Assembly: GCF_001514065.1 (NCBI RefSeq)
Contig: NZ_KQ948423.1
Location: forward strand, 1 to 64,000
Direction of reading: 5' to 3'
Source of the DNA: Streptomyces antibioticus
GTDB taxonomy: Bacteria > Actinomycetota > Actinomycetes > Streptomycetales > Streptomycetaceae
Length of the DNA: 64,000 nt
Shown: piece by piece, positions 6,002-40,420 of the stretch
Position numbering within the stretch: the first letter of the stretch is position 1
Layout: each line of letters starts with the position of its first letter
The notes under the pieces: model-generated
What the model saw: only the letters and a program-made list of their open reading frames with translations
Database searches by the model: none
Told to the model about the DNA's origin: nothing
Program-made: the position numbers and the translations under genes

Positions 6002-6028
6002 ACCTGCAGCAGCCCTGGAGAACAGCTG

Positions 6029-6063: not shown

Positions 6064-6093
6064 CGCGTGTGTTCAGTTCTTCAGCGGTGGGGC

Positions 6094-6450
6094 TCAGCTG
6101 AAGGAGTCACCGCAGGCGCAGGAGCCCGTCGCGTTCGGGTTGTCGATCGTGAAGCCCTGCTTCTCGATGGTGTCGACGAAGTCGATCGACGCGCCGCCCA
6201 GGTACGGGGCGCTCATGCGGTCGGTGACGACCTTCACGCCGTCGAAGTCCCTGACGACGTCACCGTCGAGCGAGCGCTCGTCGAAGAAGAGCTGGTAGCG
6301 CAGGCCGGAGCAGCCACCGGGCTGGACGGCGACACGCAGGGCCAGGTCGTCACGGCCTTCCTGGTCGAGCAGGGCCTTGACCTTCGCCGCGGCGGCGTCG
6401 GACAGGATGATGCCGTCGGTGACGGTGCTGGTCTCGTCCGATACGGACAT
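6094..6450 (-). CDS. erpA: A-type iron-sulfur cluster insertion protein (ErpA/HesB family)
   Basis: A 118-residue A-type carrier that hands Fe-S clusters to apoproteins. The three cluster cysteines are present: one in QPGGCSGLRYQ and two in the C-terminal GSCACGDSFS. The length is that of the family, and GGGAGAG precedes the ATG at a normal distance. It is divergent from nadA, whose product carries a 4Fe-4S cluster and is a plausible client. Whether it should be called ErpA or IscA-like cannot be settled from sequence alone; ErpA is the usual actinobacterial assignment. Confidence 0.92.
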   Translation of the reverse strand: MSVSDETSTVTDGIILSDAAAAKVKALLDQEGRDDLALRVAVQPGGCSGLRYQLFFDERSLDGDVVRDFDGVKVVTDRMSAPYLGGASIDFVDTIEKQGFTIDNPNATGSCACGDSFS

Positions 6451-6480
6451 CTACATCTCTCCCGGGTTGTACGGAGACTG

Positions 6481-6505
6481 CTTGCCGACTGGTGCAACCG
6501 GCAAG
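6481..6505. other. Inverted repeat in the erpA leader
   Basis: CTTGCCG at 6481-6487 is matched by CGGCAAG at 6499-6505 with an 11-base spacer. It is 30 bases upstream of the erpA start, in the 243-bp erpA-nadA divergent region. It could be an operator or a leader hairpin; nothing in the sequence decides. Confidence 0.35.
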
Positions 6506-6624
6506 GCCGCGGATTCATTCCGGGCCGGGCGCCGTATTTCCGGCGTCTTCTTCATGCTCGCACACCTGACAGGCCGCGGAAAATGCCGCGTCGGGATTCA
6601 TGTCACATCGACGCAATGACCATC

Positions 6625-6660
6625 GTCAAAGTGACGTGAACCGGGTTATGATAGATAACG
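6625..6660 (+). promoter_or_regulatory. Putative nadA promoter region
   Basis: TATGAT at 6647-6652, in an unusually AT-rich patch for this chromosome, is a good -10 candidate, with a poor -35 (GTCAAA) near 6625. The small inverted repeat GTCAAAGTGAC (6625-6635) overlaps the -35 position and may be an operator. Assignment is tentative. Confidence 0.4.
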
Positions 6661-6693
6661 TCAGAACGACGAAAAGTAGAAAGGGTGCGTGTC

Positions 6694-7878
6694 GTGACCA
6701 CCGCCCAGACCCAGGAGCTCGACGTACAGCCGACGCCCCTCGCCCTGCTGCTCCTCGGCCGTGAGGCCGACCCGAAGAGCGAGCGGGGTGTGGAGTGCCC
6801 CGGCGATCTGCCCTCGCCGTCCGACCCGGACCTGGTGGAGCGTGCCCGTGCGGCCAAGGAGAAGCTCGGGGACAAGGTCTTCGTCCTCGGCCACCACTAC
6901 CAGCGCGACGAGGTCATCCAGTTCGCCGACGTCACGGGCGACTCCTTCAAGCTGGCCCGGGACGCGGCCGCGCGCCCGGAGGCCGAGTACATCGTGTTCT
7001 GCGGTGTGCACTTCATGGCGGAGTCGGCGGACATCCTGACGAGCGACGACCAGAAGGTCGTGCTGCCCGACCTCGCCGCCGGGTGCTCCATGGCCGACAT
7101 GGCCACCGCCGAGCAGGTCGCCGAGTGCTGGGACGTGCTGACCGAGGCCGGGATAGCCGAGCAGGTCGTGCCGGTGTCGTACATGAACTCCTCGGCCGAC
7201 ATCAAGGCGTTCACGGGCAAGCACGGCGGTCTGATCTGCACCTCGTCGAACGCCAAGCGGGCGCTGGACTGGGCCTTCGAGCAGGGTGAGAAGGTCCTGT
7301 TCCTGCCCGACCAGCACCTCGGCCGCAACACCGCCGTCCGGGACATGGGCATGTCCCTGGAGGACTGTGTCGTCTACAACCCGCACAAGCCGAACGGCGG
7401 CCTGACCGCCGACGAGCTGCGTGCCGCGAAGATGATCCTGTGGCGCGGCCACTGCTCGGTGCACGGCCGGTTCTCGCTGGACTCGGTCAACGACGTGCGC
7501 GAGCGCATCCCGGGCGTCAACGTCCTGGTCCACCCCGAGTGCAAGCACGAGGTCGTGGCCGCGGCGGACTACGTCGGTTCGACCGAGTACATCATCAAGG
7601 CGCTGGAGGCGGCCCCGGCCGGTTCCAAGTGGGCCATCGGCACCGAGCTGAACCTCGTACGCCGGCTCGCGAACCGTTTCGCGCCTGAGGGCAAGGAGAT
7701 CGTCTTCCTCGACAAGACGGTCTGCTTCTGCTCGACCATGAACCGCATCGACCTCCCCCACCTGGTGTGGACGCTGGAGTCGCTCGCCGAGGGCAAGCTC
7801 GTCAACCGCATCGAGGTCGACAAGGAGACCGAGGCGTTCGCGAAGCTCGCGCTGGAGCGGATGCTGGCGCTGCCGTAA
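6694..7878 (+). CDS. nadA: Quinolinate synthase
   Basis: Condenses iminoaspartate with dihydroxyacetone phosphate to quinolinate, the precursor of NAD. The 394-residue protein has the NadA landmarks: LGHHYQRDEVIQFAD near 65-79, the first cluster cysteine C103 in FCGVHFMAE, then LICTSSNA, MILWRGHCSVHGRF, HPECKHEV, and CFCSTMNRIDLP near the C-terminus. I chose the GTG at 6694 because GAAAGG sits about eight bases ahead; an in-frame GTG at 6685 lies inside that ribosome-binding site. nadB and nadC are not adjacent in this window. It is divergent from erpA. Confidence 0.95.
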   Translation: MTTAQTQELDVQPTPLALLLLGREADPKSERGVECPGDLPSPSDPDLVERARAAKEKLGDKVFVLGHHYQRDEVIQFADVTGDSFKLARDAAARPEAEYIVFCGVHFMAESADILTSDDQKVVLPDLAAGCSMADMATAEQVAECWDVLTEAGIAEQVVPVSYMNSSADIKAFTGKHGGLICTSSNAKRALDWAFEQGEKVLFLPDQHLGRNTAVRDMGMSLEDCVVYNPHKPNGGLTADELRAAKMILWRGHCSVHGRFSLDSVNDVRERIPGVNVLVHPECKHEVVAAADYVGSTEYIIKALEAAPAGSKWAIGTELNLVRRLANRFAPEGKEIVFLDKTVCFCSTMNRIDLPHLVWTLESLAEGKLVNRIEVDKETEAFAKLALERMLALP

Positions 7879-7889
7879 CCCCCGGGTGA

Positions 7890-10124
7890 TCACCCCGAGG
7901 AGGAGTCCTCCTCGGGGTCTGAGGGGTCTGAGGGGTCGAGGCCGAAGACCGTGCCGTCCGGGGTGACGGCGATCAGCGCGCCGCCGTACGGCAGCACCCG
8001 GGCCTTGGCCGCGCCGCTGTCGGGGATCGTCTCGGCGTGGGTGCCCGTCTCCCACAGGTTCTCGCCGGTGTCGGCGTCGAGAGCGGCGACCCGGCCGCTG
8101 GGGCTGGCCACATAGACGGTGCGGGTCTTGGCGTCGTAGGTGGGCGGGCCCGAGTTCTCCACGATGGTGCTCGTCCGCCACGTCTGTTTGCCGGTCAGCG
8201 GGTTCACGGCGGACACCCGGCCGTCGACCTCGGTGATCCACAGGGTGCCCCCCGCCAGGGTCGTGGAGCCCGTGTAGGTCTTCGTCAGCTTGATCGTGGT
8301 GCGCTTGCCGGTGTCCGGTTCGATGAGCAGGACCGTGCTGAAGGTGGAGTCCTCCAGGGCGTCCGGCCCGCTGTGGTTCGCGGGCAGCACCGCCAGCAGG
8401 CCCTCCACCGTGCCGGCCACGCCGCTGTCGTACGGCGTCTTGAGGCGCTTGACCACCGAGCCGTCGGACCGGTCCAGGCGCAGGAGCTGTGCGTCGGTGC
8501 CGCCCCGTTGCGGGAAGCAGTGCTCGTACAGGGCGGTGCCGACCGTCAGGAAGGCGCAGTTGCTGCCGGACGGCAGCTCGCCGGTCCAGCGGTCCAGGCC
8601 GGTGCGCGGGTCACGGGCGGTGACGATCCTGCCGCCGGGGTCGACGGTCAGGACGATCTCGCGGTCCATGATCAGCTGGGTGTTCTGGTCGTTCACCTCG
8701 CGCCGCCACAGCTCGTCGCCGCGCTGCACGTCGAGGGCGATGACATGGACCGTGGCCCGTGCGGAGTCCGCGCGGGCGACGGACTGCCGGATCAGCACCG
8801 TGCCGTCGTGCACACCGAGGATCGAGGCGTCGTAGGTCCCCTTCGTGCTGCCGGTCGAGGCCAGGGAGGCGCGCCAGAGCGTGTTGCCGGTGCGCGCGTC
8901 CAGACGTTCGGGGAGCACGTTGGTGCCCGCGCAGTAGACGGCGTCCTCGCTTCGCACGCAGGAGGCGTCGCCGGTCCCACCGTCCGCCCTGCCCAGCGGC
9001 TGGACCTCGCCCCACCGCGCCGGCTCGGCCACCGTGGTCCGCCAGGGCTGCCAGCCGTCGGGCGGCGCCGCCCATCGGGAACCCGGGTCGTCGCTCTCCG
9101 CCGGGGAGTAGTCCGAGGCCCCGAACTGCGCGTACCCGACCGCCCCCAGGGCCAGCGCGCCGACCGTGCCGGCCGCCACCAGCAGGGGGCCGAGCCTGCG
9201 CCGGCGACGCCCGCCCGTCGTCGGGGCGGCCGGGCCGGCCCCCGCGTACGTCTCCTCGACGGTGTGCAGATCGCCCAGGCGCAGGGTCGTGGTGTCCGGG
9301 TCCATCAGGTCCGGCTCGGGCAGGGCCTCGGCGAACTCCTTGGCCAGGACGTCCAGTTGGGGACGCTCGGCGGGGTCCTTGACCAGGCAGCGCTCCAGGA
9401 CCGCCCGCAGCTGCTCCGGTACGCCGTCCAGTCCGGGTGCCTCGTGGACGACCCGGAACGCGGTCATGTACGGGCTGTCGGCGTCGAAGGGGCCGCGTCC
9501 GGTGGCCGAGTAGACCAGGAGCGCGGCCAGCGAGAAGACGTCCGAGGCGGGGCCGACCGTGCGGGCGTCGGTGAACTGTTCCGGGGACATGAACGGCGGG
9601 GTGCCGATCATCTGGCCGGTCTCGGTGAGGGTCTGGTGGTTCTCGGCGGCGCGGGAGATGCCGAAGTCGATGACACGGGGGCCGTCCTCGGCCATCAGGA
9701 CGTTGGCCGGCTTGAGGTCCCGGTGGACGACTCCGGCACGGTGGATGTCCCGCAGCGCCTCCACCAACCCCAGCGCCAGCCGTCGCAGTTGGGGGCCCTT
9801 GAGGGCGCCGTGGTCGCGGATGCGTTCGGCGAGGGAGCTGCCGGGGACGTACTGGGTCGCCATCCAGGGCCGTACCGCCTCCGGGTCGGCGTCCACCACG
9901 GGTGCGGTGAAGGCGCCGCTGACCTTGCGGACGGCCTCGATCTCCTGGCGGAAGCGGGCGCGGAAGACCTTGTCCTCCGCGTACTGGGCGTGCACCACCT
10001 TGACGGCGACGTCCCGGCCCGAGCGCGATCTGCCCCAGTAGACGACGCCCATGCCGCCGGAGCCGAGCCGGTCGACCAGCTTGTACCCGCCGACCGACTT
10101 CGGGTCGTCCTTGTGCAGTGGCAC
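7890..10124 (-). CDS. Membrane Ser/Thr protein kinase with C-terminal PQQ-like beta-propeller
   Basis: A PknB-type kinase of 744 residues. The glycine loop GSGGMGVVY (21-29), lysine K42 in VAVKVV, HRDLKPANV (134-142, catalytic D136) and DFGIS (153-157) are intact, so the kinase should be active. A membrane helix lies at about 312-333, after a run of five arginines. The outside portion (about 350-744) contains repeated motifs such as DARTGNTLWRA, LTGKQTWRT and DADTGENLWET, typical of PQQ-like/WD-type propeller blades that sense ligands or partners. The start is the GTG at 10124 (PLHKDDPKSVGGYKL); the longer frame has no better signal. It lies downstream of the RND gene and behind a hairpin, so probably has its own promoter. 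Confidence 0.93.
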   Translation of the reverse strand: MPLHKDDPKSVGGYKLVDRLGSGGMGVVYWGRSRSGRDVAVKVVHAQYAEDKVFRARFRQEIEAVRKVSGAFTAPVVDADPEAVRPWMATQYVPGSSLAERIRDHGALKGPQLRRLALGLVEALRDIHRAGVVHRDLKPANVLMAEDGPRVIDFGISRAAENHQTLTETGQMIGTPPFMSPEQFTDARTVGPASDVFSLAALLVYSATGRGPFDADSPYMTAFRVVHEAPGLDGVPEQLRAVLERCLVKDPAERPQLDVLAKEFAEALPEPDLMDPDTTTLRLGDLHTVEETYAGAGPAAPTTGGRRRRRLGPLLVAAGTVGALALGAVGYAQFGASDYSPAESDDPGSRWAAPPDGWQPWRTTVAEPARWGEVQPLGRADGGTGDASCVRSEDAVYCAGTNVLPERLDARTGNTLWRASLASTGSTKGTYDASILGVHDGTVLIRQSVARADSARATVHVIALDVQRGDELWRREVNDQNTQLIMDREIVLTVDPGGRIVTARDPRTGLDRWTGELPSGSNCAFLTVGTALYEHCFPQRGGTDAQLLRLDRSDGSVVKRLKTPYDSGVAGTVEGLLAVLPANHSGPDALEDSTFSTVLLIEPDTGKRTTIKLTKTYTGSTTLAGGTLWITEVDGRVSAVNPLTGKQTWRTSTIVENSGPPTYDAKTRTVYVASPSGRVAALDADTGENLWETGTHAETIPDSGAAKARVLPYGGALIAVTPDGTVFGLDPSDPSDPEEDSSSG
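7893..7917. terminator. 25-bp perfect palindrome at the convergent nadA/kinase ends
   Basis: CCCCGAGGAGGA and TCCTCCTCGGGG flank a single G. The palindrome includes the last codons of the kinase gene and lies 15 bases past the nadA stop. It can fold as a 10-11 bp stem and probably serves as a terminator for both genes. Confidence 0.6.
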
Positions 10125-10184
10125 GACCGAATGTCCCTTCCCGCGCACGGCAGTTCGAGGCCACAGAATACGCACGGGACGAGC

Positions 10185-10212
10185 GAGGGCGGCCGGTCAC
10201 CCGGCCGCCCTC
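10185..10212 (-). terminator. Hairpin downstream of the RND transporter gene
   Basis: GAGGGCGGCCGG and CCGGCCGCCCTC form a perfect 12-bp stem with a four-base loop, eleven bases after the RND stop codon in the direction of transcription. Confidence 0.75.
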
Positions 10213-10223
10213 CTACGGGACTC

Positions 10224-13200
10224 TCACACGCCCGCGGGTTCCGGCTGGGCCGGTGCCTCCGCCTTCTTCTCCCGCTTCAGGGCCCGCTTCTTCGCGCGGC
10301 GCTCCTTGCGGAGCTCCAGCATCGTGTAGAGCGTCGGGACCAGGAGCAGGGTCAGCAGGGTCGAGGTGATCAGACCGCCGATCACGACGACGGCCAGCGG
10401 CTGGGCGATGAAGCCGCCCTCGCCGGTGACCCCGAGGGCCATCGGGAGCAGGGCGAAGATCGTCGCCAGGGCCGTCATCAGGATCGGGCGGAGCCGGTGC
10501 CGGCCGCCCTCGATGACGGCGTCGACCGTCGAGTACCCCTGCCTGCGGTACTGGTTGATGAGGTCGATCAGCACGATCGCGTTCGTCACCACGATGCCGA
10601 TGAGCATCAGCATGCCGATCATCGCGGGCACGCCCATCGGGGTGCCGGTCAGGATCAGCAGGCCGATCGCGCCCGTCGCCGCGAACGGGATGGAGACGAG
10701 GAGGATCAGCGGCTGAACCAGCGACCGGAACGTGGCCACCAGCAGCATGAACACGATCGCGATCGCCGCGAGCATCGCCAGGCCCAGGTTCTTGAACGCG
10801 CTGTCCTGGTCGGAGGTGACACCGCCGATCTCGGCCGTGGCGCCCGCCGGGAGCTTCAGCGCGTCGAGCTTGGAGGTGAGGTCCTGGCTCACCGCACCCG
10901 TGTTGTCACCGGTCGGCTTGGCGGTGATGGTCGCCGCGCGCTGCCCGTCGATCCGGGTCATCGACACCGGGCCGTCCACCAGCTTCACGGTGGCGATGTC
11001 ACCCAGCTTCACCGGACCGAGCTTGAGGTTCCGCAGCTCGTCCAGGGTCTGCGCGGGCTTCGCCGACCGGATGACGACGTCCCGCTCGGTGTCGTCGAGG
11101 ATCGCCTTGGCTGCGGTGGTGCCCTTGACCGCCTCGGCCACGGCCGCGCCGAGGGTCTGGTCGTTGAAACCGGCCGCCGCCGCCTTGGAGTTGGCCTTCA
11201 CCGAGATGCGCGGGACGCTCTCGGCGAGGTTGCTGGTGACGTCGGTGACGTCGTCCAGGCCCGCGACGGTCTTGCGCACTTCCTCGGACGCCTCGCGCAG
11301 GACGTTCGCGTCGGCCGCCTTCACGACGACGCTCAGGTCCTGGCTGCCGAAGCCGTCACCGGCCGCGATGGTCGTCGTACCGATGCCGTCGAGCTTCTTC
11401 AGACCGGCCTCGATGCTGTCCTGGACGTCGTCGGAGGAGGCCGAGTCGTCCAGCATCACCGAGTAGGAGGCCTGGTTGGTGTCGGTGCCGCCGCCGAAGG
11501 CCGCCATGAAGCCGGACGAGCCGATGGTGACCTGGTAGTCCTTGACGCCCTCGGTGTCGGCGAGCAGCCTCTCGACCTTCTTCGCCTGCGCGTCGGTCGC
11601 GGCCAGGCTGGTGCCGGGCTTCAACTCCTGCTTGACGGTGAGGACTTCCTGCTCGCCCTGGTCGAAGAAGTTCGTCTTCAGCAGCCCGGACATGCCGAAC
11701 GTGCCGATGAGGATGACGACCGCGATCAGCACACTGGTCAGGCGCCGCCGGGTCGCGAACCTCAGGACGGGGACGTAGAGCCGCTGGAGCCTGCTCCTCG
11801 CCTCCTTCTCCTCGGCGAGGCGGCGGGCCTCCTCCGCGTCCTCGGGGGTGTTCTTCGGGGCGCGCAGGAACCAGTACGACAGGACCGGGACGACCGTCAG
11901 CGAGACGACGAGGGACGCGAGCAGCGCGGCCGTCACCGTCAGGCTGAAGGAGCCGAACAGCTCGCCCACCATGCCGCCGACCAGGCCGATCGGCAGGAAC
12001 ACGGCGACCGTGGTGAGGGTGGAGGAGGTGACCGCGCCGGCGACCTCGCGGACCGCCTTGAGGATGGCCTCCTGGCGCTCCTCGCCGTAGCCGAGATGGC
12101 GCTTGATGTTCTCCAGGACCACGATCGAGTCGTCGACGACCCGGCCGATGGCGATGGTCAGCGCGCCGAGGGTGAGCATGTTCAGGGACAGGTCACGCGT
12201 CCACAGCACGATCAGCGCGAGTACGACCGACAGCGGGATGGACACCGCGGTGACGAGGGTCGAGCGGACCGACGCCAGGAAGACCAGGATGACCAACACC
12301 GCGAAGAGCAGGCCGAGCGCGCCCTCGGTGGTCAGGCCCTCGATGGCCTTGGCGACCGCCGGGCCCTGGTCGGAGACGACGGTGATCTCGGAGCCGCTGC
12401 CGAGGTCCTTGCGCAGGGCGGGCAGCTTGTCCTCGACGGCGTCGGAGATCGAGACCGCGCTGCCGTCCTTGTCCATGGTGACCATGACGGCGAGGCTGGG
12501 CTTGCCGTCGGTGCGGGTGATCGAGTCGGCGGCGGCCTCCTCCTGCTTGACGGCGGCCACGTCACCGAGGCGTACGGGCTTCCGGCCGGGCGTACCGGTG
12601 ACCATCAGGTCCTGGATCTGCGCGACCGAGGTGAAGCCGCCGCCGACCTGGACGGTGCGGTTGGCGCCGTCCTCGTCGAAGGAGCCGGCCGGGACGGTCG
12701 CGCCGCCCGCCTGGAGGGCCTGGGCGAGGGCGGCCGAGGTGAGACCGGCCTTCGCGAGCTCGGCGTCGTCCGGGGTGACGGTGACCTGGAGGTCGCGGAC
12801 GCCGTCCACGGTGACCTGGCCGACGCCGTCGATCGACTTCAGCTCCGGGACGACCGTCTTGTCGAGCTGGTCGGCGAGGGCCTGCTGGTCCTTGGCCGAG
12901 GTGACGGCGAGGACGACGGTCGGCATGTCGTCCGTGGAACCGGCGATGACCTGCGGGTCCACGGAGTCCGGGAGCTGGACGCGGGCCCGGTTGACGGCCT
13001 GCTGGACGTCGGCGACGAGCTGCTTGGTGTCGGGGCCGTAGTCGAAGGACGCCATGATCACGGCGTTGCCCTCACTGGCCGTCGAGGTGACACCCTCGAT
13101 GCCGTCGACGGCTTCGAGGCTGTCCTCGATGGGCTCGACGACCTGCTTCTCGACGACGTCCGGGGAGGCGCCCTGGTAAGGGGCCAGCACGGACACCATG

Positions 13201-19810: not shown

Positions 19811-19855
19811 GAGTGCGAGTCGTCTGTGGCTGGTCGCGCAGTTCCCCGCGCCCCT
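19811..19855 (+). repeat. Dispersed ~45-bp repeat, copy B
   Basis: GTGCGAGTCGTCTGTGGCTGG followed by the core GCGCAGTTCCCCGCGCCCCT. It fills much of the gap between two divergent starts, upstream of the cobU-type gene. Confidence 0.8.
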
Positions 19856-25993: not shown

Positions 25994-26061
25994 GGGCCCA
26001 GTCTCGGGCAGGGAGGGGCGGGGTGCCTGGCGGGTACGGCGACCGGGCTACTCTTCCCGGC

Positions 26062-26838
26062 GTGTCAACGTCCCCGCAGCTCCACGGCCTCCGTTTCGCC
26101 TTCGGCACCCTGAGTGTGCTCCCCGTCCGGGTGAGCCGCTGGGACCGGGGGGCGGCGCGCGGCGGCATGCTGTGCGCCCCGCTGGTGGGAGTGGTGATCG
26201 GCGCGCTCGCGGCGGGCGTCGGGCTCGCGCTGCTGTGGCTGGGCTCGGGGGCGCTGCTCGCCGCGGTCGGCTCGGCTGCGGTCCCTGCCGTACTGACCCG
26301 GGGCCTGCATCTCGACGGCATCGCCGACACCGCCGACGGACTCGGCAGCGGCAAGCCCGCGGAGGACGCCCTGCGCATCATGAAGCAGTCGGACATCGGG
26401 CCGTTCGGCGTCATCACCCTCGTCTTCGTGCTGCTGGGCCAGGTGGCCGCGCTGGCACGGGCCTACGACGACTCATGGGCCCGGGGTGCGGTGGCCACCG
26501 TCGTCGCGGCGGTCGTCGCGCGGCTCGCGCTGACCCTGGCGGCCCGTGCCGGGGTGCCGCCCGCCCGCCCGGAGGGGCTGGGGGCGGCGGTGGCAGGGGT
26601 GGTGCCGATGGGCGGTGCCGTCGGGGTCGTCGTGGCGGTGCTGGTGGCGGCGGGCGGGGGCGGGCTGCTGACGGGGAGCTACGGCCCTGTCGTCGCCGTT
26701 GCCGTCGCTCTCGCCGCCTCCGAGCTGCTGCTGCGGCACTGCACGCGCCGCTTCGGCGGAATCACCGGGGATGTGTTCGGCGGGCTCGCGGAGACCGCGG
26801 CGACGACGGCGCTGGTCGTCCTCAGCTTCGGTGCCTAG
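26062..26838 (+). CDS. cobS: Adenosylcobinamide-GDP ribazoletransferase (cobalamin synthase)
   Basis: Membrane enzyme joining GDP-cobinamide (made by CobU) with alpha-ribazole (from the CobT product) to give cobalamin. The 258-residue protein has LRFAFGTLSVLPV at the start, the acidic signature LTRGLHLDGIADTADGLGSG followed by DALRIMKQSDIGPFG, and about six helices. The GTG at 26062 has TACTCT seven bases ahead and no ribosome-binding site, so is probably leaderless. Its stop overlaps the stop of the convergent GH114-like gene by four bases. Confidence 0.93.
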   Translation: MSTSPQLHGLRFAFGTLSVLPVRVSRWDRGAARGGMLCAPLVGVVIGALAAGVGLALLWLGSGALLAAVGSAAVPAVLTRGLHLDGIADTADGLGSGKPAEDALRIMKQSDIGPFGVITLVFVLLGQVAALARAYDDSWARGAVATVVAAVVARLALTLAARAGVPPARPEGLGAAVAGVVPMGGAVGVVVAVLVAAGGGGLLTGSYGPVVAVAVALAASELLLRHCTRRFGGITGDVFGGLAETAATTALVVLSFGA

Positions 26839-27611
26839 CAGGCCCGGCGCCACACGCCCAGCTCGTACTTCTTCGCCATCGAGCTCAGCTTCAGCCGGCG
26901 CGACTGCGCGCAGAAGGCGCTCGTCGGCAGCTCGTACTCCACGTGGAACACGGCCTTGCCCGCCTTGATGAAGGGCGTGTTGGCCTCGCACTCGTCGTAC
27001 TGGGCGCACTGTTCGTTGACCGCGAAGTCGAAGTCGTCCACCAGCTGCGGGATCTGGTCCAGGTCGTTCTTCAGGCCCACCGCCATGCCCCGGTCGTGGG
27101 CGAGCTTCGCGACCAGGCGGTTGTAGCGGAGCTGGTCGGAGGCCTTGAGGTCGAATCCCGTGCGGTTCTTGTATCCGTCCATGTTGTCCGGCTCCACCGC
27201 GTCGAAGCCCTTGTCCCGGCACATGTCCATGCGGGCGGCGACGAGCGGCTCGAGGACATCGATCTGCCGGATGTCCAGCCAGCGTTCGCCCTCCCAGCCG
27301 TTGCCGCGGCCGATCACCGACTTCGGGAACTTCTTCGCGTCGGGCCGCCAGTCCTCCCAGGCGCCGGTGGAGAGGTAGCAGATCACCTTGCGGTCCTTGC
27401 GGTGCAGGGCGGTCACGGTCGCCTTCGGCTGGTCGAAGCCGTCGATGTCGTAGACCGGGACGTCGACGGAGGTGTCGATCGTCTTGCCGCTCAGCTGCCA
27501 CTGCCAGGCCAGACCGGGGGCCGGCTGCCAGCGGGTGCTCGGCTTTCCGTCCTGGGCCGTGGTGCAAGCGGCGAGGAGGAGGACGGGGAACAGCCAGAGA
27601 AGGCGTCTCAC
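26835..27611 (-). CDS. GH114-like endo-alpha-1,4-galactosaminidase lipoprotein
   Basis: A 258-residue lipoprotein (lipobox LLAAC, cysteine 16) with a TIM-barrel of the TM1410/GH114 type: VYDIDGFD near 53-60, KVICYLSTGAWEDWRPD, and the acidic signature FDAVEPDNMDGY with probable catalytic E140. This fold is that of the PelA hydrolase domain and the fungal Ega3, which cut galactosamine-containing polymers; I infer that activity from the fold and neighbours. The GTG at 27611 (GGAG nine bases upstream) overlaps the TGA of the preceding gene. Last gene of the proposed polysaccharide operon, exposed on the outer face of the membrane. Confidence 0.85.
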   Translation of the reverse strand: MRRLLWLFPVLLLAACTTAQDGKPSTRWQPAPGLAWQWQLSGKTIDTSVDVPVYDIDGFDQPKATVTALHRKDRKVICYLSTGAWEDWRPDAKKFPKSVIGRGNGWEGERWLDIRQIDVLEPLVAARMDMCRDKGFDAVEPDNMDGYKNRTGFDLKASDQLRYNRLVAKLAHDRGMAVGLKNDLDQIPQLVDDFDFAVNEQCAQYDECEANTPFIKAGKAVFHVEYELPTSAFCAQSRRLKLSSMAKKYELGVWRRAC

Positions 27612-28234
27612 TGAGCGGGCTCCAGAGCGTGGGGCAACGTACCCCAAGGATGATCACCCATGCCCGGCACCCCGCAGTACAGATCCGCCCCGTGCACCGT
27701 GAGATCCGCGCCACGCGGCACGCCGTACACGAGATGGCAGAGCCGTACGTCCGTGCCGCCGTGCCACTTCGGTGGGCCCAGGTGGAGGTACGACTTCCAG
27801 GGGCCCTCGAAGGTCACAAGGACGTCGGCGATGCGGGCGTAGGAGGCGTGCGGGGCGGTTCCGTGGTTGAGGGCGAGGGTGCCGGGGATCGCTGTCGCGA
27901 GGCGGCGGTAGTAGGTGAACTCGGCTTCTCCTGTGGCCACTTGGTCCAGGAAGGCACCGTCCGTGCCGTACCAGTCGCGGTGACGGGCGAGGTCGCGGGC
28001 GACGTCGGGGTGGGGGCGGCGGGCGTAGGCGGTGTCGACGTAGCCGAGGGTCCGTGTCCCTGCGGCTCTGAGGCGTGCGGCCACCTCGACGAAGGCCTCG
28101 TCGGGGTGGTCGCCGGGGCCGCTCGCCGGGTTGAGGACCACCGCGTAGAGGTGAGGGGCCGCTGCGACGACCGCGTCCCATTCCGCGGGGCGGACGGACG
28201 GGTGCTCGTAGTACGGGAGCAGGAGGTTCGTCAT
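27608..28234 (-). CDS. Spherulin-4 family (Sph3/GH135-like) protein
   Basis: A 208-residue TIM-barrel protein of the spherulation-specific family 4, with LLPYYEHPSV near the start, AVVLNPASGPG (31-41), LGYVDTAYARRP, WYGTDGAFLDQVA (88-100) and VTFEGPW (140-146). Fungal Sph3 of this family hydrolyses galactosaminogalactan. The candidate acid pair reads D97-Q98 rather than Asp-Glu, and E143 could be the other catalytic residue; this alignment is by eye. No signal peptide is seen, unlike the next gene. ATGA overlap with the membrane protein gene upstream and GTGA overlap with the GH114-like gene downstream show coupling. Confidence 0.82.
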   Translation of the reverse strand: MTNLLLPYYEHPSVRPAEWDAVVAAAPHLYAVVLNPASGPGDHPDEAFVEVAARLRAAGTRTLGYVDTAYARRPHPDVARDLARHRDWYGTDGAFLDQVATGEAEFTYYRRLATAIPGTLALNHGTAPHASYARIADVLVTFEGPWKSYLHLGPPKWHGGTDVRLCHLVYGVPRGADLTVHGADLYCGVPGMGDHPWGTLPHALEPAQ

Positions 28235-29595
28235 CGGTGGGCGGTCGCTTTCCCCAGCAGGGCCCAGGCCAGGACCGCCTGGGCCGTGGCGGCGGTCGCG
28301 TACACGGTCAGGGGGGTCAGCAGGGCGAATGTCTGGGCCAGGGCCGCCGTGCAGCAGATCGCCGTCGTGGTGACGATCGCGCCGAAGGACTGGAGCAGCA
28401 GGGCCGTCCACAGGACGGCGCCGAGGAGCAGGAGGGGTGCGGGACTGATGCCGGTGGCCAGGGCCAGGGCGAGGAGGGCGAGGAGGTAGGCGGTGAGACA
28501 GTGCAGGAGGGTGCGGGTGGTGGTGCGGCGGAAGGTGGTGGGGGTGGCGCTGGAGCGCAGGGCGGTGAGGGTGGTGCTTCGGAGGCGGTGGAGGAGGTAT
28601 TCGGCGGGGCCCATGCTCAGGGTGAGGACCAGGGCGGTGAGGGGGTTGGCGAGGGCTGCGTGGAGGACGAGGGTGCCGGTGGCCAAGCCGAAGAGGGCGT
28701 AAGGGAAAGACGAAAAGAGAGGGGGGCCCGCTGTCGTGTGTCGACTGCGGGTGCGTCGTGGCTGGTCGCGCAGTTCCCCGCGCCCCTTGACGGCGTTGTC
28801 CTGAGGCATGATTTCAAGTAGCCCCAGGATGGTCACTACCAGCAGAGAGCCCAGAAGCAGGGTGAGTCTCGCTGCGTTCGGGACGGGGTGGAACAGGGTC
28901 AGGATTGCTCCTGCTGCCATCGGCAACAGGGCCAGCAGCAATGCTCGTTCGCGGGCCCGTACCAGCAAGATCGTCGACACGCCCAGGTACAGGGACTGGC
29001 CCACCGCGAAGGCCGTGGACCGGTCTGCGGTGCCTGATGCCAGCCATGCCGCCAAGGTGCCCAGCACCACCCCCGTCGGCACCCCGCGCAGCAGGCTGCG
29101 CTTCGCCGCCCGTTCGTCCCCCAGCCCCAGCCAGGTGTACGCCCGATGGGCCAGGCCCTGGTTCCAGGTCCAGCCGGTCAGGGCGCTCGCCAGGAGCGGG
29201 AGCGGGGCTGCGGTGCCGAGCGCGTAGGCGAAGCCGGGGAGGGCGAAGACCACTCCCCGGAGCAGGCAGGTCAACAGGCCTACCCGCCACGGGTCGTGGG
29301 GTGGCGTGTCCGGCTCGGGGTGGCGGCGGGCCACCCGTTCGTAGAGTTCCTCGGCCAGCGCGAAGGAGTTCTTCACTCCGTACCGCTCGCGTATCTGGTC
29401 GTCCGACAGGCCGTCCGACTCCAGGAGCGCGGCGATCTCGTCGGGGTGGACGGCCGCGGCCACGAAGTCGTCGAGGCGGTCGGCGAGTTCGTCGATGGGA
29501 TCGGGTCCTGCCCAGCTGGGGGTGCCGCGTTGCTCGGGGATGGTGGGGAAGGTGTCGGGGCGGGCGCCCGGAGGCAGCCAGATCGAGCCGCTCAC
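28231..29595 (-). CDS. Polytopic membrane protein of the Pel/GAG-like operon, containing an in-frame dispersed repeat
   Basis: A 454-residue protein: about 100 N-terminal soluble residues (DPIDELADRLDDFVAAAV, then IRERYGVKNSFALAEELYERV) and roughly ten helices. I recognise no transporter family; by position, between a PelF-like transferase and two hydrolases, it may help polymer export or anchoring as PelG/PelE do. The start GTG at 29595 overlaps the pelF-like stop. Residues about 267-287 are encoded by a copy of the 45-bp dispersed repeat (reading VKGRGELRDQPRRTRSRH), a hydrophilic insertion between two helices that leaves the frame open. The rest of the frame extends upstream to 31749 antisense-like and is not coding. 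Confidence 0.8.
   Translation of the reverse strand: MSGSIWLPPGARPDTFPTIPEQRGTPSWAGPDPIDELADRLDDFVAAAVHPDEIAALLESDGLSDDQIRERYGVKNSFALAEELYERVARRHPEPDTPPHDPWRVGLLTCLLRGVVFALPGFAYALGTAAPLPLLASALTGWTWNQGLAHRAYTWLGLGDERAAKRSLLRGVPTGVVLGTLAAWLASGTADRSTAFAVGQSLYLGVSTILLVRARERALLLALLPMAAGAILTLFHPVPNAARLTLLLGSLLVVTILGLLEIMPQDNAVKGRGELRDQPRRTRSRHTTAGPPLFSSFPYALFGLATGTLVLHAALANPLTALVLTLSMGPAEYLLHRLRSTTLTALRSSATPTTFRRTTTRTLLHCLTAYLLALLALALATGISPAPLLLLGAVLWTALLLQSFGAIVTTTAICCTAALAQTFALLTPLTVYATAATAQAVLAWALLGKATAHR
28745..28790 (+). repeat. Dispersed ~45-bp repeat, copy C, inside a coding region
   Basis: CTGCGGGTGCGTCGTGGCTGG plus the core GCGCAGTTCCCCGCGCCCCT. It lies wholly within the membrane protein gene and is translated on the minus strand. 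It is nearly identical to the intergenic copies, so it is a recent arrival relative to the gene. Confidence 0.85.
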
Positions 29596-31118
29596 CAGTC
29601 GGTTCCGTCCGTCGCGACCGCCGCGTACCAGGGGTCGCGCAGTTCGAGGGTCCAGTCGGTGACGGTCTCGACCATGGGCTCGTAGACCTCGGGCAGGCCC
29701 GCGAGTTCCTGGTAGATGGTGCGGAAGGCGTCCACCGAGCGGCGGAGCGTGAAGCGGTCGATCACCCGTTGGCGGGACAACTCGCCTGACTTCAGGCGGC
29801 GTTCGTCGTCCTTGAGGAGCGTCAGGGCAGCCGCCGCCATCTTCTCCGGTTCCCTCGGCGGGACGACGATGCCCGTGTCGCCCACGGCCTCGCGTACGCC
29901 GCCCACGTCCGTCGACACCGTCGTACGGCCGCAGGACATGGCCTCGATGATGGAGAACGGGAAGCCCTCGGAGATGGAGGAGAGCATCACCACGTGGCCG
30001 GCCGCGTAGGCGCGCCAGACCTCGCTGATGCGGCCCTCGAAGGTGAGGCCGTCGGTGACGCCGAGTTCGGCGGCGAGCTTCTCCAGGCGGGTCTTGTAGT
30101 CCTCGCCGCCGGGCGGCACCGGGCCGAACAACCGCAGCCTGGTCTCCGGGAGTTCGGCGCGGACCATCGCGTAGGAGCGGATCAGGGTCTCCAGGTCCTT
30201 GATGGGGTCCACGCGGCCGCACCAGGTGAGGGTGGGGACCTCGGGTTCGGGGCCCGCGTGCGGGAAGGCGGCCGGGTCGACGCCGTTGTAGACCGTGCGG
30301 ATCTTGTCGGCGTCCGCGCCGCCGCGCTCCTCCCAGCGGCGGTTGTACTGGTTGCAGGGGGTGATCAGGTCGGCGGCCCGGTAGCCGAGGGAGTTGAGCT
30401 CGCGGTAGAAGCCGAGCATGAACGCCTTCACGGGCCAGCGTTGGGCGTCGGAGCGGTAGCCGAGGTAGCGCTCGCGGAGGTAGATGCCGTGCTCGGTGAG
30501 GAGGAACGGTACGCCGTCGAGGGCGTGCGCGGCGAGGGCCGGCAGGGTGGCCAGACCGCTGCTCACGGCGTGCGCCACCGAGTCCTCCGGGATGCGCACG
30601 CCCAGCGGGCGCAGGGCGTGTTCGAGGAGGTCGGTGGCGGTGAGGGCGTCGTGGACCGTGGGCTGGGCGGCGGCGATGGGCAGGTGCGGCATCGTCCAGA
30701 TCCACATCAGGGAGCGCAGGGCGGACTCCGTGCGCAGGGCCGCCGCCAGGCGTCCGGCGCGGGCGAGTCGGGCCAGGTCGTAGAGGGCCTCGCCGAAGTC
30801 GTCGTGGTCCGCCGCCTCCGGGGCGAGGAAGGAGAGCAGGAAACGCTCGTAGGAGTCCAGGAAGCGGCGTGCCGCCCTGCCGAAGGGGGCGGATCTGCGG
30901 CCCGGGCGCGGGCCCCAGGTGGGGACCGAGGTGTGGCGGTAGACGTTCGGCGGCAGCTCCCAGGTCACGGGTTCGCGGCCGCTGCCGGTGAGCGACAGGA
31001 TGTGGAAGTCGACCTCCGGCATGCCCTTGACGAGCTGGTCGCACCAGGTGCTGACGCCGCCGTGGACGTGCGGGTAGGTGCCTTCGGTGAGCATGGTGAC
31101 GTGACGGCCCGTTCGCAT
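29592..31118 (-). CDS. pelF: PelF-like GT4 glycosyltransferase
   Basis: A cytoplasmic GT-B glycosyltransferase of 508 residues, the size and layout of PelF, which uses UDP-GalNAc-type donors in Pel polymer synthesis. It begins VTMLTEGTYPHVHGGVSTWCD, the typical PelF start, and contains LTEHGIYLRER, TWCGRVDPIKDLETLI and the EX7E motif E384-E392 in SISEGFPFSIIEAMSCG. No GGDEF-like c-di-GMP receptor (PelD) is in the operon. Its stop overlaps the GTG of the membrane protein gene. The 120-bp gap to the deacetylase-like gene upstream holds a dispersed repeat. Donor specificity is inferred. Confidence 0.9.
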   Translation of the reverse strand: MRTGRHVTMLTEGTYPHVHGGVSTWCDQLVKGMPEVDFHILSLTGSGREPVTWELPPNVYRHTSVPTWGPRPGRRSAPFGRAARRFLDSYERFLLSFLAPEAADHDDFGEALYDLARLARAGRLAAALRTESALRSLMWIWTMPHLPIAAAQPTVHDALTATDLLEHALRPLGVRIPEDSVAHAVSSGLATLPALAAHALDGVPFLLTEHGIYLRERYLGYRSDAQRWPVKAFMLGFYRELNSLGYRAADLITPCNQYNRRWEERGGADADKIRTVYNGVDPAAFPHAGPEPEVPTLTWCGRVDPIKDLETLIRSYAMVRAELPETRLRLFGPVPPGGEDYKTRLEKLAAELGVTDGLTFEGRISEVWRAYAAGHVVMLSSISEGFPFSIIEAMSCGRTTVSTDVGGVREAVGDTGIVVPPREPEKMAAAALTLLKDDERRLKSGELSRQRVIDRFTLRRSVDAFRTIYQELAGLPEVYEPMVETVTDWTLELRDPWYAAVATDGTDW

Positions 31119-31156
31119 AGCCGCGCGTGTTCCCCCCTGTTATGCGGATGTGGTTC

Positions 31157-31224
31157 GGGGGAACTGCGCGCCATGGCCCACTGCGGGTCCGTCGTGGTTG
31201 AGCGCGCAGTTCCCCGCGCCCCTT
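31157..31224 (+). repeat. Dispersed repeat copy D with an inverted partial core
   Basis: A full copy (CTGCGGGTCCGTCGTGGTTG plus core) occupies 31181-31224. An inverted core GGGGAACTGCGCG at 31158-31170 faces CGCGCAGTTCCCC at 31203-31215, so the transcript between the deacetylase-like and pelF-like genes can form a 13-bp perfect stem with a 32-base loop. Confidence 0.75.
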
Positions 31225-31238
31225 TGGGGCGTTGCTGC

Positions 31239-33266
31239 TTACGGCAGTTTCAGAGTCAGCGCTGACTGCAGTGCCGCGGGCGTCCCCCAGGCCGAGCGCC
31301 TGCCCGCATACGCCGTACCGAAGGTCGTCGTACCAAGAAGAAGCTGCTGCTTCGTGCCCTCCGGAACCGTCAGCGGGATCTGCGTCCCGCTCGGGGCCGT
31401 GACCGTCACCGTGCTGCCGACGCGGTACGCCGTGACCTTGCCGGAGGCCAGCGCGGCCTGCCAGGCGGCGCGGCGCTGGAGTTCGGTGCCGATGGCGGCC
31501 TGGGCCAGGTTCTCCAGCGGGGTGTTGTCGGCGAACAGGGCCTGGTAGTCGGCCAGCACCTTGTTCAGGACCGGGTAGAGGGTGCGGTCCTCGGCCAGGT
31601 TGGACTGGTGGGCGTAGTGCGGGCGCGGGTCGCCCGAGATCGCGTGCCCGAGGGCCGTGCGGGCCTCCTGCGGGACGATGTACGACCGGTAGCCGGTGGC
31701 CGTGGCGAGGGGCGCGGGCAGGCAGGTGGAGGAGGGGTTGTTCTCGCACAGGCCGCTGCCGCCGTCGGCCGCCGAGGTGTAGATCCAGTTGTACTCGTCG
31801 GCCATCTCCGCTTCGGTGCCCGTGTTGTAGTACACGTTCATCGGGTAGCGCGGCACGGTGAGGGTGCTGCTGCCGACCGAACGCTGCTCCGGTTCACGGG
31901 AGTTGTCGGAGGCGGTCCACTTGACGCCGTTCGCGGAGAGCGCGCCCGCGAGGTTGGGGTTGTCGTCGGGCTGCTGGGGCAGGGTGCGCAGGCCCGAGTG
32001 TTCGCCGGTGACGAGTTCGGCGCGGTTGAGCGGGAGGCCTTTGGAGACGCCCCAGTTGTAGTTGTCGCCGATCTCCGCGGAGATCTCGGCGCGGCTCAGG
32101 TACTGGGTGCTGCCGTCGGCGTTCTTGGCGCAGCTCCACGGCACGCTGGTGGTGTCCTGGACGCAGCCGAGGAACTTGTGCGTGTAGGTGTGGTTGATCC
32201 AGCGGTACTTGGCCTTGTCGGCGAGCAGCTGCGCGGCGAGCGCGTCGGTGCCGCCGTTCTCGGTCTTCCACTCCTCGCCGGAACCGGCGTTGTAGACCAT
32301 GTCGAGCTTGAAGCCGTGCTCCTGCTGCCACTGCGCCGCGTACTGGGCGTCGGCGGCGGTCATCCGGATCGGTACGGTCCCCGCGCCGTCGCCGCCGGGG
32401 CAGGTGAAGTCGCCCGGGGTGCAGTTGTGGGCGGTGTCCCAGCGGCTGTCGGGCGCGAAGACGTCGTCGACATGGACCTCGAAGTAGTTGCGGGCCTGGC
32501 CCAGGTGCACGCCCTGGGTCAGCCACTCGACGATGCCGCGGGCCAGCACCCGGAACTGCTGCTGGTACTGGTTGTAGGCGAAGGTCACGACGAGTTCGCG
32601 GCGGCCGTCGTGCGCGTACTCGCCGATGAGGCTGCCCCGGCCGGTGCCGCCCGGCACGGGGACGTCCACGTAGCTGGTGAAGCCGGTGCGGGGCGTGGCG
32701 ACGAAGCCGTAACTCTCCTGCGTCGAGGCCGAGTTGTCCTCGAAGGTGACGGCGCCGTCGAGATAGCCGAACCAGCCCGCCTTGCCGGCCGTGGTGACGT
32801 CCGCCGTCCGGCCGTCCAGGGTCCCGGAGTACGCGCTGTAGTCCAGGCCCACCTCCGGGTGCGCCCAGGTGTAGGCGTCGACCTGCGGGATGCCGTACGT
32901 CTTCTCGTAGGCCTCCAGCGCGGTCTGCTCCGCCGAACCGGCCCCGAACGGGGCCTCGTTGGGCAGCACGACGCCCTGGTACCTGGCCCTGGGCGTGCCG
33001 TTGACCGTGTCGGCGAGGAACGCGGCCGTGATGGCGGGGCGGTTCGCGTCGTTCAGGTCGACGGTGGTGTACGGGATGCCGGTGTTCTTGAGCTGAGCCG
33101 TGATGGCCTGGACGGGGCTGTCGCCGTTGTCCACGACCAGCACCTTCAGGTCGATGCGCGGTGTCGTCGCCGCGCCGGCACCGGGCGCCCCCAGGCCCAG
33201 CGCGATCAGCCCCGCCGCCGTGGAGACGGCGGCCACGGCCTTCCATCTGTGCGCACTGTGCGCCAT
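31239..33266 (-). CDS. Secreted Agd3-like (CE18) polysaccharide deacetylase
   Basis: A 675-residue exported protein. The signal peptide has an AGAGAATT cleavage region near residue 33. The N-terminal domain begins KVLVVDNGDSP. The central catalytic domain carries metal-binding motifs of the NodB-like deacetylase fold in the order seen in fungal Agd3: HVDDVF (265-270) and HTYTH (359-363), with TGEHSG at 420-425. Agd3 removes acetyl groups from GalNAc residues of galactosaminogalactan. A beta-rich C-terminal part follows (GKVTAYRVGSTVTVTAPSG). The ATG at 33266 has GGAAGGA six bases upstream; the open frame extends further without function. First gene of the operon. Confidence 0.85.
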   Translation of the reverse strand: MAHSAHRWKAVAAVSTAAGLIALGLGAPGAGAATTPRIDLKVLVVDNGDSPVQAITAQLKNTGIPYTTVDLNDANRPAITAAFLADTVNGTPRARYQGVVLPNEAPFGAGSAEQTALEAYEKTYGIPQVDAYTWAHPEVGLDYSAYSGTLDGRTADVTTAGKAGWFGYLDGAVTFEDNSASTQESYGFVATPRTGFTSYVDVPVPGGTGRGSLIGEYAHDGRRELVVTFAYNQYQQQFRVLARGIVEWLTQGVHLGQARNYFEVHVDDVFAPDSRWDTAHNCTPGDFTCPGGDGAGTVPIRMTAADAQYAAQWQQEHGFKLDMVYNAGSGEEWKTENGGTDALAAQLLADKAKYRWINHTYTHKFLGCVQDTTSVPWSCAKNADGSTQYLSRAEISAEIGDNYNWGVSKGLPLNRAELVTGEHSGLRTLPQQPDDNPNLAGALSANGVKWTASDNSREPEQRSVGSSTLTVPRYPMNVYYNTGTEAEMADEYNWIYTSAADGGSGLCENNPSSTCLPAPLATATGYRSYIVPQEARTALGHAISGDPRPHYAHQSNLAEDRTLYPVLNKVLADYQALFADNTPLENLAQAAIGTELQRRAAWQAALASGKVTAYRVGSTVTVTAPSGTQIPLTVPEGTKQQLLLGTTTFGTAYAGRRSAWGTPAALQSALTLKLP

Positions 33267-33621
33267 CGGGTGTCCTTCCCCCCAGAAGATCCTCGTGCGG
33301 CCCCTTTGCGGGCAATCCGGGGAGGATCCGTGGAAATGATGCAAAGCGGCGAACAGAGCGTCCGCCGGAACACAGCGAGTGTGGCCGAGGTGACGGGGTG
33401 TGAGAGCTGAGAAGTGGCCACGACGCCACCCACAGGTGAACGCCCGCAGGAATGAGCGAAACCGCGCCACGCGCGTAGGCTCGGTCCGGGTGTTCATCGA
33501 CGGGGTGAAGGCCCCGGTCGATGCCACCCCTCTCCGGCGGATCTAGGGTCGGCTGTCGGGCCCGGTCGACCCACCCGTTTCGACCACTGGAACTTCACAT
33601 CGGAAGCGAGATTTCACCACC
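33267..33621. promoter_or_regulatory. 355-bp divergent promoter region (deacetylase-like gene / pepA)
   Basis: No gene is seen here. TAGGGT at 33545-33550 is a possible -10 for pepA. The stretch is otherwise GC-rich without a clear operator. It must hold the promoter of the five-gene polysaccharide operon on the minus strand, but I cannot point to its -10 with confidence. Confidence 0.35.
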
Positions 33622-35154
33622 GTGACTGCTCTCACTCTCAGCACCGCCGCGGCGCCCGGCCTGCGGGCCGACGCGATCGTGATCGGTGTCGCCAAGGGCG
33701 CTGCATCCCGGTCCGGGGGCCTGGTCGTCGCCCCGGGCGCCGAAGCCGTGGACAAGGCCTACGACGGCAAGCTCGCCGGCGTCCTGGAGACCCTCGGTGC
33801 CTCCGGTGCCGAGGGCGAGGTGACGAAGCTGCCCGCGCCGTCCGGTTTCAAGACGCCGCTCGTGGTGGCCGTGGGTCTCGGCCCGGAGCCCGAGAAGGAC
33901 TCCTCCTTCGACGCCGAGGCGCTGCGCCGGGCCGCCGGTACGGCCGCCCGCGCGCTGAACGGCGCGAAGAAGGCCGCGTTCGCGCTGCCGCTCGCGGACG
34001 CCGCCGACGCCGGTGCGGTCGCCGAGGGCGCGCTGCTGGGCGCGTACTCCTTCGACGCGTACAAGGAGAACGGCAAGGACCCGAAGAAGGGCAAGGCGCC
34101 GCTCGCCGAGGTGGCCCTGCTGGGCGGCAAGCCCCGCGACCGCGCCTACAAGGCGGCCGTCGAGCGGGCCCTCGCGGTCTCGGAGGAGCTGAACCGCGCT
34201 CGGGACCTGATCAACACCCCGCCGAACGACCTGTACCCGGAGGCCTTCGCCGCCGTCGTGCAGGCCGCGGGCAAGGAGCACGGCCTCAAGGTGCAGGTGC
34301 TCGACGACAAGGCGCTGGTCAAGGGCGGTTACGGCGGCATCCTGGGCGTCGGCGGCGGTTCCGAGGCGAAGCCACGGCTGGTGAAGCTGTCGTACACCTC
34401 CTCCAAGGCGAAGAAGCACCTGGCGCTGGTCGGCAAGGGCATCACGTACGACTCGGGCGGCATCTCGCTGAAGCCGGCCGGCCACAACGAGACGATGAAG
34501 TGCGACATGAGCGGTGCGGCGGCCGTCTTCGCCGCCGTCGTCGCGGTCGCGCGGCTCGGTCTCGAGGTGAACGTCACCGGGTGGCTGGCGCTCGCCGAGA
34601 ACATGCCGTCGGGGTCCGCGGTGCGGCCGGGTGACGTGCTGCGCATGTACAGCGGCAAGACCGTCGAGGTCCTCAACACCGACGCGGAGGGCCGGCTGGT
34701 GCTGGCCGACGCGCTGTGGGCGGCGTCGGAGGAGAAGCCGGACGCGATCGTCGACGTGGCGACGCTGACCGGGGCGATGATGCTGGCGCTGGGCAGCCGG
34801 ACGTACGGGATCATGGCCAACGACGACGCGTTCCGCACCGCTGTGCACGAGGCCGCGGAGGAGGTCGGCGAGCCGGCGTGGCCGATGCCGCTGCCGGAGC
34901 ACCTGCGCAAGGGGATGGACTCCCCGACCGCCGACATCGCGAACATGGGTGAGCGGATGGGCGGCGGGCTGGTCGCCGGGCTCTTCCTGCGCGAGTTCGT
35001 GGGCGAGGGGATCACCTGGGCGCACCTCGACATCGCGGGCCCGGCGTTCAACGAGGGTGGGCCGTTCGGGTACACGCCCAAGGGGGGTACGGGTACCGCT
35101 GTGCGTACGTTGGTGCGGCTGGCGGAGCTGACTGCCGCGGGTGACCTGGGCTGA
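33622..35154 (+). CDS. pepA: Leucyl aminopeptidase (M17)
   Basis: A cytosolic two-metal exopeptidase of 510 residues. The C-terminal catalytic domain has all landmarks: GKGITYDSGGISLKP, MKCDMSGAAAV, the signature NTDAEGRLVLADAL and metal ligands within, then HLDIAGPAFN. The N-terminal 170 residues are the variable regulatory domain. Start GTG at 33622; AGCGAG lies about 13 bases ahead, a rather long spacing. It precedes lpd on the same strand but 286 bases and a dispersed repeat separate them. Confidence 0.94.
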   Translation: MTALTLSTAAAPGLRADAIVIGVAKGAASRSGGLVVAPGAEAVDKAYDGKLAGVLETLGASGAEGEVTKLPAPSGFKTPLVVAVGLGPEPEKDSSFDAEALRRAAGTAARALNGAKKAAFALPLADAADAGAVAEGALLGAYSFDAYKENGKDPKKGKAPLAEVALLGGKPRDRAYKAAVERALAVSEELNRARDLINTPPNDLYPEAFAAVVQAAGKEHGLKVQVLDDKALVKGGYGGILGVGGGSEAKPRLVKLSYTSSKAKKHLALVGKGITYDSGGISLKPAGHNETMKCDMSGAAAVFAAVVAVARLGLEVNVTGWLALAENMPSGSAVRPGDVLRMYSGKTVEVLNTDAEGRLVLADALWAASEEKPDAIVDVATLTGAMMLALGSRTYGIMANDDAFRTAVHEAAEEVGEPAWPMPLPEHLRKGMDSPTADIANMGERMGGGLVAGLFLREFVGEGITWAHLDIAGPAFNEGGPFGYTPKGGTGTAVRTLVRLAELTAAGDLG

Positions 35155-35193: not shown

Positions 35194-35236
35194 CTGCGGG
35201 CCGGCTGTGGCCGGTCGCGCAGTTCCCCGCGCCCCT
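35194..35236 (+). repeat. Dispersed ~45-bp repeat, copy E
   Basis: CTGCGGGCCGGCTGTGGCCGG plus the core GCGCAGTTCCCCGCGCCCCT, 40 bases after the pepA stop. Confidence 0.8.
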
Positions 35237-40373: not shown

Positions 40374-40420
40374 GGCGGGTGCGGGTCCGCTGTGGCTGGT
40401 CGCGCAGTTCCCCGCGCCCC
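40374..40420 (+). repeat. Dispersed ~45-bp repeat, copy F
   Basis: GGCGGGTGCGGGTCCGCTGTGGCTGG plus the core at 40401-40420, 22 bases after the gntR stop. Confidence 0.8.

Follow-up and report, generated by a model that had tools for sequence, protein, structure and literature searches.

The stretch of DNA analysed here, referred to below as the window, comprises positions 1 to 64,000 of contig NZ_KQ948423.1 of Streptomyces antibioticus, whose genome of about 10.1 Mb is assembled in 29 contigs. It carries five genes on the minus strand that form an operon related both to bacterial Pel operons and to the fungal galactosaminogalactan (GAG) cluster. From the 5′ end, the genes encode a secreted Agd3-like CE18/CBM87 deacetylase of 675 amino acids (31239..33266), a PelF-like glycosyltransferase of family GT4 of 508 amino acids (29592..31118), the membrane protein P0003 of 454 amino acids, which starts with GTG and is proposed to be an exporter (28231..29595), a spherulin-4/GH135-like protein of 208 amino acids (27608..28234) and a GH114 endo-galactosaminidase-like lipoprotein of 258 amino acids, also with a GTG start (26835..27611). 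None of the five reading frames is interrupted in the window. The open reading frames of the last four genes are joined by three 4-base overlaps (GTGA, ATGA and GTGA), and the one-strand layout proposed in an earlier, sequence-only reading of this DNA is confirmed. The agd3 and pelF genes are separated by 120 bp (31119..31238) containing one copy of a dispersed genomic repeat. The operon is a real, recurrent and well-resolved member of a published class.

The deacetylase was compared with Agd3 at several levels. As a single sequence it scores under the cut-off of the Pfam Agd3 model (17.2 versus 27.6 bits), and phmmer found no match to it in the PDB. The similarity is clear once profiles and structure are used instead: profile A8 matched both halves of the Agd3 structure 6nwz with an E-value of 6.5e-47, and profile A1 gave 4.1e-14. 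The protein has the three-domain Agd3 architecture, including CBM87. It contains HVDDVF at residues 265–270 and HTYTH at residues 359–363, and the residues of Agd3 motifs CM1–CM4 (D377/D378, H510/H514, R613 and H668, in a numbering derived by hand from a chain offset of 122) align to D267/D268, H359/H363, R473 and H553, the predicted catalytic residues. Of 80 relatives, 73 have [HQ][VI]DD[VM]F and 78 have H[TS][YS].H; PR[HYF]PM and HQSN were found in 79 of 79.

The glycosyltransferase matched the NCBIfam PelF equivalog over residues 7–469 with 168.1 bits (cut-off 100) and Pfam DUF3492 at 3e-58. The spherulin matched Pfam Spherulin4 at 6.7e-29 (101.5 bits, cut-off 30.2) and the Sph3 structure 5c5g at 4e-10 as a single sequence and 2e-25 by profile. 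Its D97 and E143 match the putative catalytic D166 and E222 of Sph3. Sph3 residues D166, E167 and E222 are all listed as putative catalytic in one source (PMC10485009), and one aspartate (printed as Asp196) together with Glu222 is named in another (PMC12054363). FLDQ is kept in 54 and TFEG in 59 of 60 spherulin relatives. No signal peptide was visible by eye in the window spherulin or in the 15 inspected of its 61 relatives. Sph3 is placed outside the cytoplasm, and the cellular place of the leaderless spherulin may thus differ from that of Sph3. The GH114 protein matched its Pfam family at 1.7e-88 (296 bits, cut-off 27) and the Ega3 structure 6oj1 at 2.4e-61. The regions of the active-site Asp and Glu are present as EPDN from residue 140 and VNEQC from residue 198; EPDN and VNE[EQ]C are found in 50 of 50 relatives. 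The protein also has a lipobox-like stretch, LLAAC, and a pattern of this kind occurs in 45 of the 50.

All four family assignments made in the sequence-only reading hold. The Agd3-like identity is supported by the CE18 profile match and the kept CM1–CM4 catalytic residues, though M666 of CM4 is replaced; the PelF-like GT4 identity by the NCBIfam score above its cut-off; the Sph3-like spherulin-4 identity by Pfam and the Sph3 profile match; and the GH114-like lipoprotein by Pfam, the Ega3 match and the lipobox-like stretch. Best matches outside CE18, GH135, GH114 and PelF would have refuted the sequence-only reading; a comparison of all four by sequence, with structure added for the Agd3-like protein, did not refute it.

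The fifth protein, P0003, matched no family in Pfam, NCBIfam or PHROG, and its fold was assigned by prediction. It features a short helical N-terminal part (about residues 33–87) followed by 12 predicted long helices (6 + 6), and the AlphaFold2 model has a predicted local distance difference test (pLDDT) value of 81.8. The predicted structure has the 12-helix fold of the multidrug/oligosaccharidyl-lipid/polysaccharide (MOP) superfamily. Among the first 48 rows of the structural comparison, 47 are labelled MATE/MOP, MurJ or WzxE and one is labelled “protein A”. PelG has a 12-helix MOP-superfamily fold as well, and the model makes P0003 the likely exporter in the place of PelG. The sole match to the PelG family PF16933 in the genome containing the window is partial, lies elsewhere and is under the cut-off.

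The conservation of the locus was studied in the relatives of agd3, for which the best 80 of 485 confirmed matches were kept, 79 titled Streptomyces and one “Actinobacteria bacterium”. The nearest named relative is Streptomyces justiciae, with 96% identity in the Agd3-like protein. In the window, the 3′ end of the operon overlaps by 4 bp a convergent gene named cobS by eye (26023–26838), and a divergent gene named pepA by eye (33622–35154) lies opposite the operon start. Upstream pepA on the opposite strand is present in 80 of 80 loci, separated by about 2.1 kb in L097, and the contig reaches cobS in 70. Forty-five of these 70 loci have the complete gene set in order; of the others, 14 lack GH114 only, three lack the spherulin only, two lack both, one consists of agd3 and GH114, and five have agd3 alone. 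One of the 10 loci that end before cobS also has all five genes. The five-gene order, a survey of which across Streptomyces had been proposed, is therefore recurrent. The 4-base overlap is kept at the pelF/membrane-gene junction in 60 of 65 related loci, at the membrane-gene/spherulin junction in 39 of 60 and at the spherulin/GH114 junction in 40 of 46. Of 246 genomes surveyed in the genus, 113 had a relative of agd3 at an E-value of 0.001, as did 9 of 296 in the phylum, five of the nine being outside the genus.

The five loci with agd3 alone are all from genomes with a paralogous pelF (61–65% identity). Nucleotide-sugar genes stand beside this pelF in four of them; the contig of the fifth breaks off within the membrane gene. 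In the 246-genome survey, a paralogous pelF was present in 3 of 3 genomes with window-type agd3 but without window-type pelF, versus 25 of 67 genomes with both (p 0.06). Two of the three are also among the five agd3-alone loci (one by identical sequence, one by identical coordinates), and G260, the sixth genome, is known from the survey only. The six distinct genomes pooled give 6 of 6 versus 25 of 67 (p 0.0043, uncorrected for kinship), a count sorted by hand, with the five loci drawn from the 80 nearest relatives. The paralogous operons of L154 and L157 retain at most a remnant of agd3 in the stretch read; hence, the agd3 left behind could be the functional one.

The paralogous operons are of two types. 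Type 1 consists of agd3, pelF, a membrane gene, a LegB-like 4,6-dehydratase (444.6 bits, under the cut-off of 475), a sugar nucleotidyltransferase, a short-chain dehydrogenase/reductase (SDR) and a spherulin. All three sugar genes are present in 13 paralogous loci, two of them from one genome. A GH114 gene above the threshold occurs in 6 of the 13, and three of them have no agd3 or only a remnant. The dehydratase, nucleotidyltransferase and SDR genes were seen in loci L044–L048 and L050–L053, where they hint at a nucleotide sugar made for the purpose, possibly a 6-deoxy amino sugar. Type 2 consists of pelF, a gene related to P0003 in its N-terminal part, an SDR and a spherulin, with no agd3 or GH114 in the stretches read. 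In all three aligned type 2 spherulins, which are from other genomes, the catalytic Glu is replaced by Ser. The genome containing the window has a type 2 locus of its own (G000:C3, about 262400–267600; about 4324–9515 of L163, which spans G000:C3:258072–275580), with a pelF-like gene and a spherulin by Pfam and an SDR by eye; the stretch read contains no agd3 or GH114. A moeZ-like gene, named by eye, adjoins this locus.

Two more distant loci were also considered. In L049, of the same class but another genus, the series pelF, membrane gene, spherulin and GH114 is immediately preceded by galE (336 bits against a cut-off of 262); agd3 and a second spherulin lie nearby, agd3 on the opposite strand. 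This galE is the best hint of a galactose-series sugar. The second spherulin (about 6704–7486) seems by eye to have a signal peptide, unlike the first. L181 (about 3433–10710), from another genome of the phylum, contains a GAF/GGDEF gene, followed after about 1 kb by PelF, PelG (2.6e-142) and Agd3_CE (3.8e-24, over the cut-off), and is an apparent hybrid of a cyclic di-GMP Pel operon and a CE18 deacetylase. These relatives link the parts of the operon to Pel and to galactose-series sugars.

Taken together, the family assignments support the earlier view of an operon combining the synthesis and the modification of a polymer, and we consider it probable that this is a synthase-dependent exopolysaccharide operon making, exporting, deacetylating and trimming a galactosamine-type polymer. 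The active-site motifs kept among relatives, the recurrent gene order and overlaps, the relatives L181 and L049 and the paralogous pelF in all six genomes with window-type agd3 but without its pelF also speak for this. An amino-sugar polymer is the most likely product. PelF would polymerise the amino sugar, most likely N-acetylgalactosamine (GalNAc), on the inner face of the membrane from UDP-GalNAc, the enzymes for which would be encoded outside the operon. The growing chain would be carried out by the MOP-fold protein in the place of PelG, and the secreted Agd3-like enzyme would then strip acetyl groups, leaving a positively charged polymer, the deacetylated stretches of which would be cut by the surface-anchored GH114 lipoprotein. 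The leaderless spherulin may act in the cytoplasm, clearing nascent chains or restricting how long they grow, or may play a non-hydrolytic role. Such a polymer might affect hyphal adhesion.

Several observations weigh against this reading. No epimerase is encoded among the five genes of the operon; the galE model matched in L049 is that of UDP-glucose 4-epimerase rather than of a GalNAc-specific enzyme, and, given the sugar genes of the paralogous operons, 6-deoxy or other amino sugars may be the substrates of related enzymes. The position of M666 in CM4 of Agd3 is Y551 in the deacetylase; in the text of PMC7229062, M666 is conserved and required for activity and is not given as a defining feature. 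The position of E167 in Sph3 is Q98 in the spherulin. The Foldseek E-values for the MOP match of P0003 are weak (best 6.4e-3, with a template modelling score of about 0.4), the protein has no match to Pfam PelG (PF16933), and hhalign with thin profiles gave a probability of 0.2–0.5% against three PelG sequences. In addition, the operon is patchy in its distribution and often reduced.

Three other explanations were weighed. The polymer, again partly deacetylated, might be built on an amino sugar other than GalNAc, for example as a 6-deoxy-N-acetylhexosamine polymer or a mixed chain, the enzymes having drifted to it. The paralogous operons, in which the membrane gene and the spherulin flank the LegB-like dehydratase, the nucleotidyltransferase and the SDR, and a more distant relative, which adds a UDP-sugar dehydrogenase, speak for this. 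However, the window operon has no such sugar genes, its GH114 protein is close to Ega3 and one relative has galE, so we regard a different sugar as unlikely, if worth keeping in view. It is less probable still that the operon mainly degrades or remodels foreign galactosamine polymers in soil (fungal GAG or bacterial Pel), with PelF and the membrane protein in another role. The Agd3-like and GH114 proteins do look secreted or anchored, agd3 is alone at the site in 5 of the 80 loci and the text of PMC7229062 cites an endogalactosaminidase from S. griseus, but the conserved 4-bp overlap of pelF with the membrane gene and the paralogous pelF kept in all five agd3-alone genomes speak against it. 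The patchy distribution, the loss of GH114 or of synthesis genes in some loci and the repeat within the membrane gene could also be read as signs that the operon is decaying or silent and yields no polymer in this strain. With all frames open, most key residues kept and the repeat in frame in a length-variable loop, this is very improbable.

The preferred reading, an operon producing a galactosamine-type polymer, can be extended, tentatively, to a Streptomyces family of PelG-independent machines for cationic exopolysaccharides. Each would combine PelF with an unrecognised MOP-fold exporter bearing a small cytoplasmic domain and with cytoplasmic policing of chains by a GH135-like protein. At least three versions would exist: the window type, one carrying nucleotide-sugar genes of its own and one lacking a deacetylase, in which the spherulin has lost the catalytic Glu. 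A deacetylase left by one version could possibly serve the polymer of another.

The repeat mentioned above, GGGGCGCGGGGAACTGCGCG, has 7 matches in the window at up to 3 mismatches versus 0.19 expected (1281–1300, 19835–19854, 28767–28786 on the minus strand, 31203–31222, 35216–35235, 40401–40420 and 53859–53878), and its 19-mer has 110 exact copies in the genome versus 0 for the reversed pattern. The copy at 28767..28786 lies within the membrane-protein gene and is translated in frame; in the protein it falls in the loop that joins predicted long helices six and seven. This loop varies in length among relatives, several of which have similar residues there. The region upstream of agd3 (33267..33621, minus strand) was aligned with 79 related upstream regions; blocks are kept between agd3 and pepA in these 80 sequences, e.g., at about 33327–33349 and 33435–33485, and may represent a shared promoter or operator.

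Homologues of agd3 in 45 bacterial species were reported in 2020 (Bamford et al., PMC7229062). According to the text of that report, the bacterial agd3 operons also contain a cytoplasmic glycosyltransferase, GH114 and a membrane protein termed multi-spanning, with spherulin-4 as well in some Actinobacteria; Streptomyces galactosamine polysaccharides and an endogalactosaminidase are discussed there too. Hence, the class and the polymer idea are already in print. The text does not mention the fold of the membrane protein, the conservation of the Streptomyces site or the paralogous types; the figure and supplements, outside our scope, may include the same Streptomyces operon. A literature search, with subscription journals mostly outside its scope, gave among the matches listed nothing on this operon in Streptomyces, its membrane-protein fold or the paralogous types. 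The likely exporter and the picture of operon retention and loss across the genus are added here, the MOP-fold protein being a concrete candidate where the text on the class says only “multi-spanning”. If the reading is correct, many Streptomyces can make a Pel/GAG-type polymer from a fixed chromosomal site, and the operon gives a genetic handle on the galactosamine material and endogalactosaminidase cited in that report. The compact set of five genes would allow synthesis, export, deacetylation and trimming to be taken apart in soil bacteria by deleting genes, and the polymer would resemble those binding Pseudomonas and Aspergillus biofilms together.

The sequence-only reading had placed the operon closer to the fungal than to the Gram-negative cluster, and this stands for the modifying enzymes only. 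In the Aspergillus cluster (uge3, gtb3, agd3, ega3 and sph3), as described in the text of PMC4817252, a CE18 deacetylase, a GH114 enzyme and a spherulin-4 protein are likewise clustered with the synthase, which is a single putative transmembrane glycosyltransferase. In contrast, the window operon lacks the epimerase of the fungal cluster, its synthase and proposed exporter are separate and look Pel-like (PelF and a MOP-fold protein), and its spherulin is leaderless, with Gln at the E167 position. The Bacillus cereus pelDEADAFG operon, as far as PMC7112168 and PMC13254593 describe it, resembles the window operon in having PelF, an exporter in the membrane and, outside it, a deacetylase of three domains. 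The window operon differs in that its membrane protein is not PelG by sequence, its hydrolases are GH114 and GH135-like rather than PelA-type, and its deacetylase is CE18-like, whereas PelADA is reported to be outside the existing CE families. The 2026 PelADA paper describes this three-domain, Agd3-like Pel deacetylase of Gram-positive bacteria as acting on alpha-1,4-GalNAc oligosaccharides; since it does so from outside those families, the proposed substrate is plausible and family membership alone is no proof of it. None of the five window genes is PelD or PelE; for PelD, this comparison covers the operon rather than the whole genome. Deacetylation drives adhesion and biofilm formation in the precedents, according to the texts of PMC4817252, PMC7229062 and PMC7112168. 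The MatAB polymer, poly-N-acetylglucosamine, and the CslA/GlxA polymer of Streptomyces are likewise surface polymers controlling aggregation and adhesion, as described in the text of PMC5972031. These are different systems, and the window polymer would be a further one, possibly the third to take part in hyphal aggregation.

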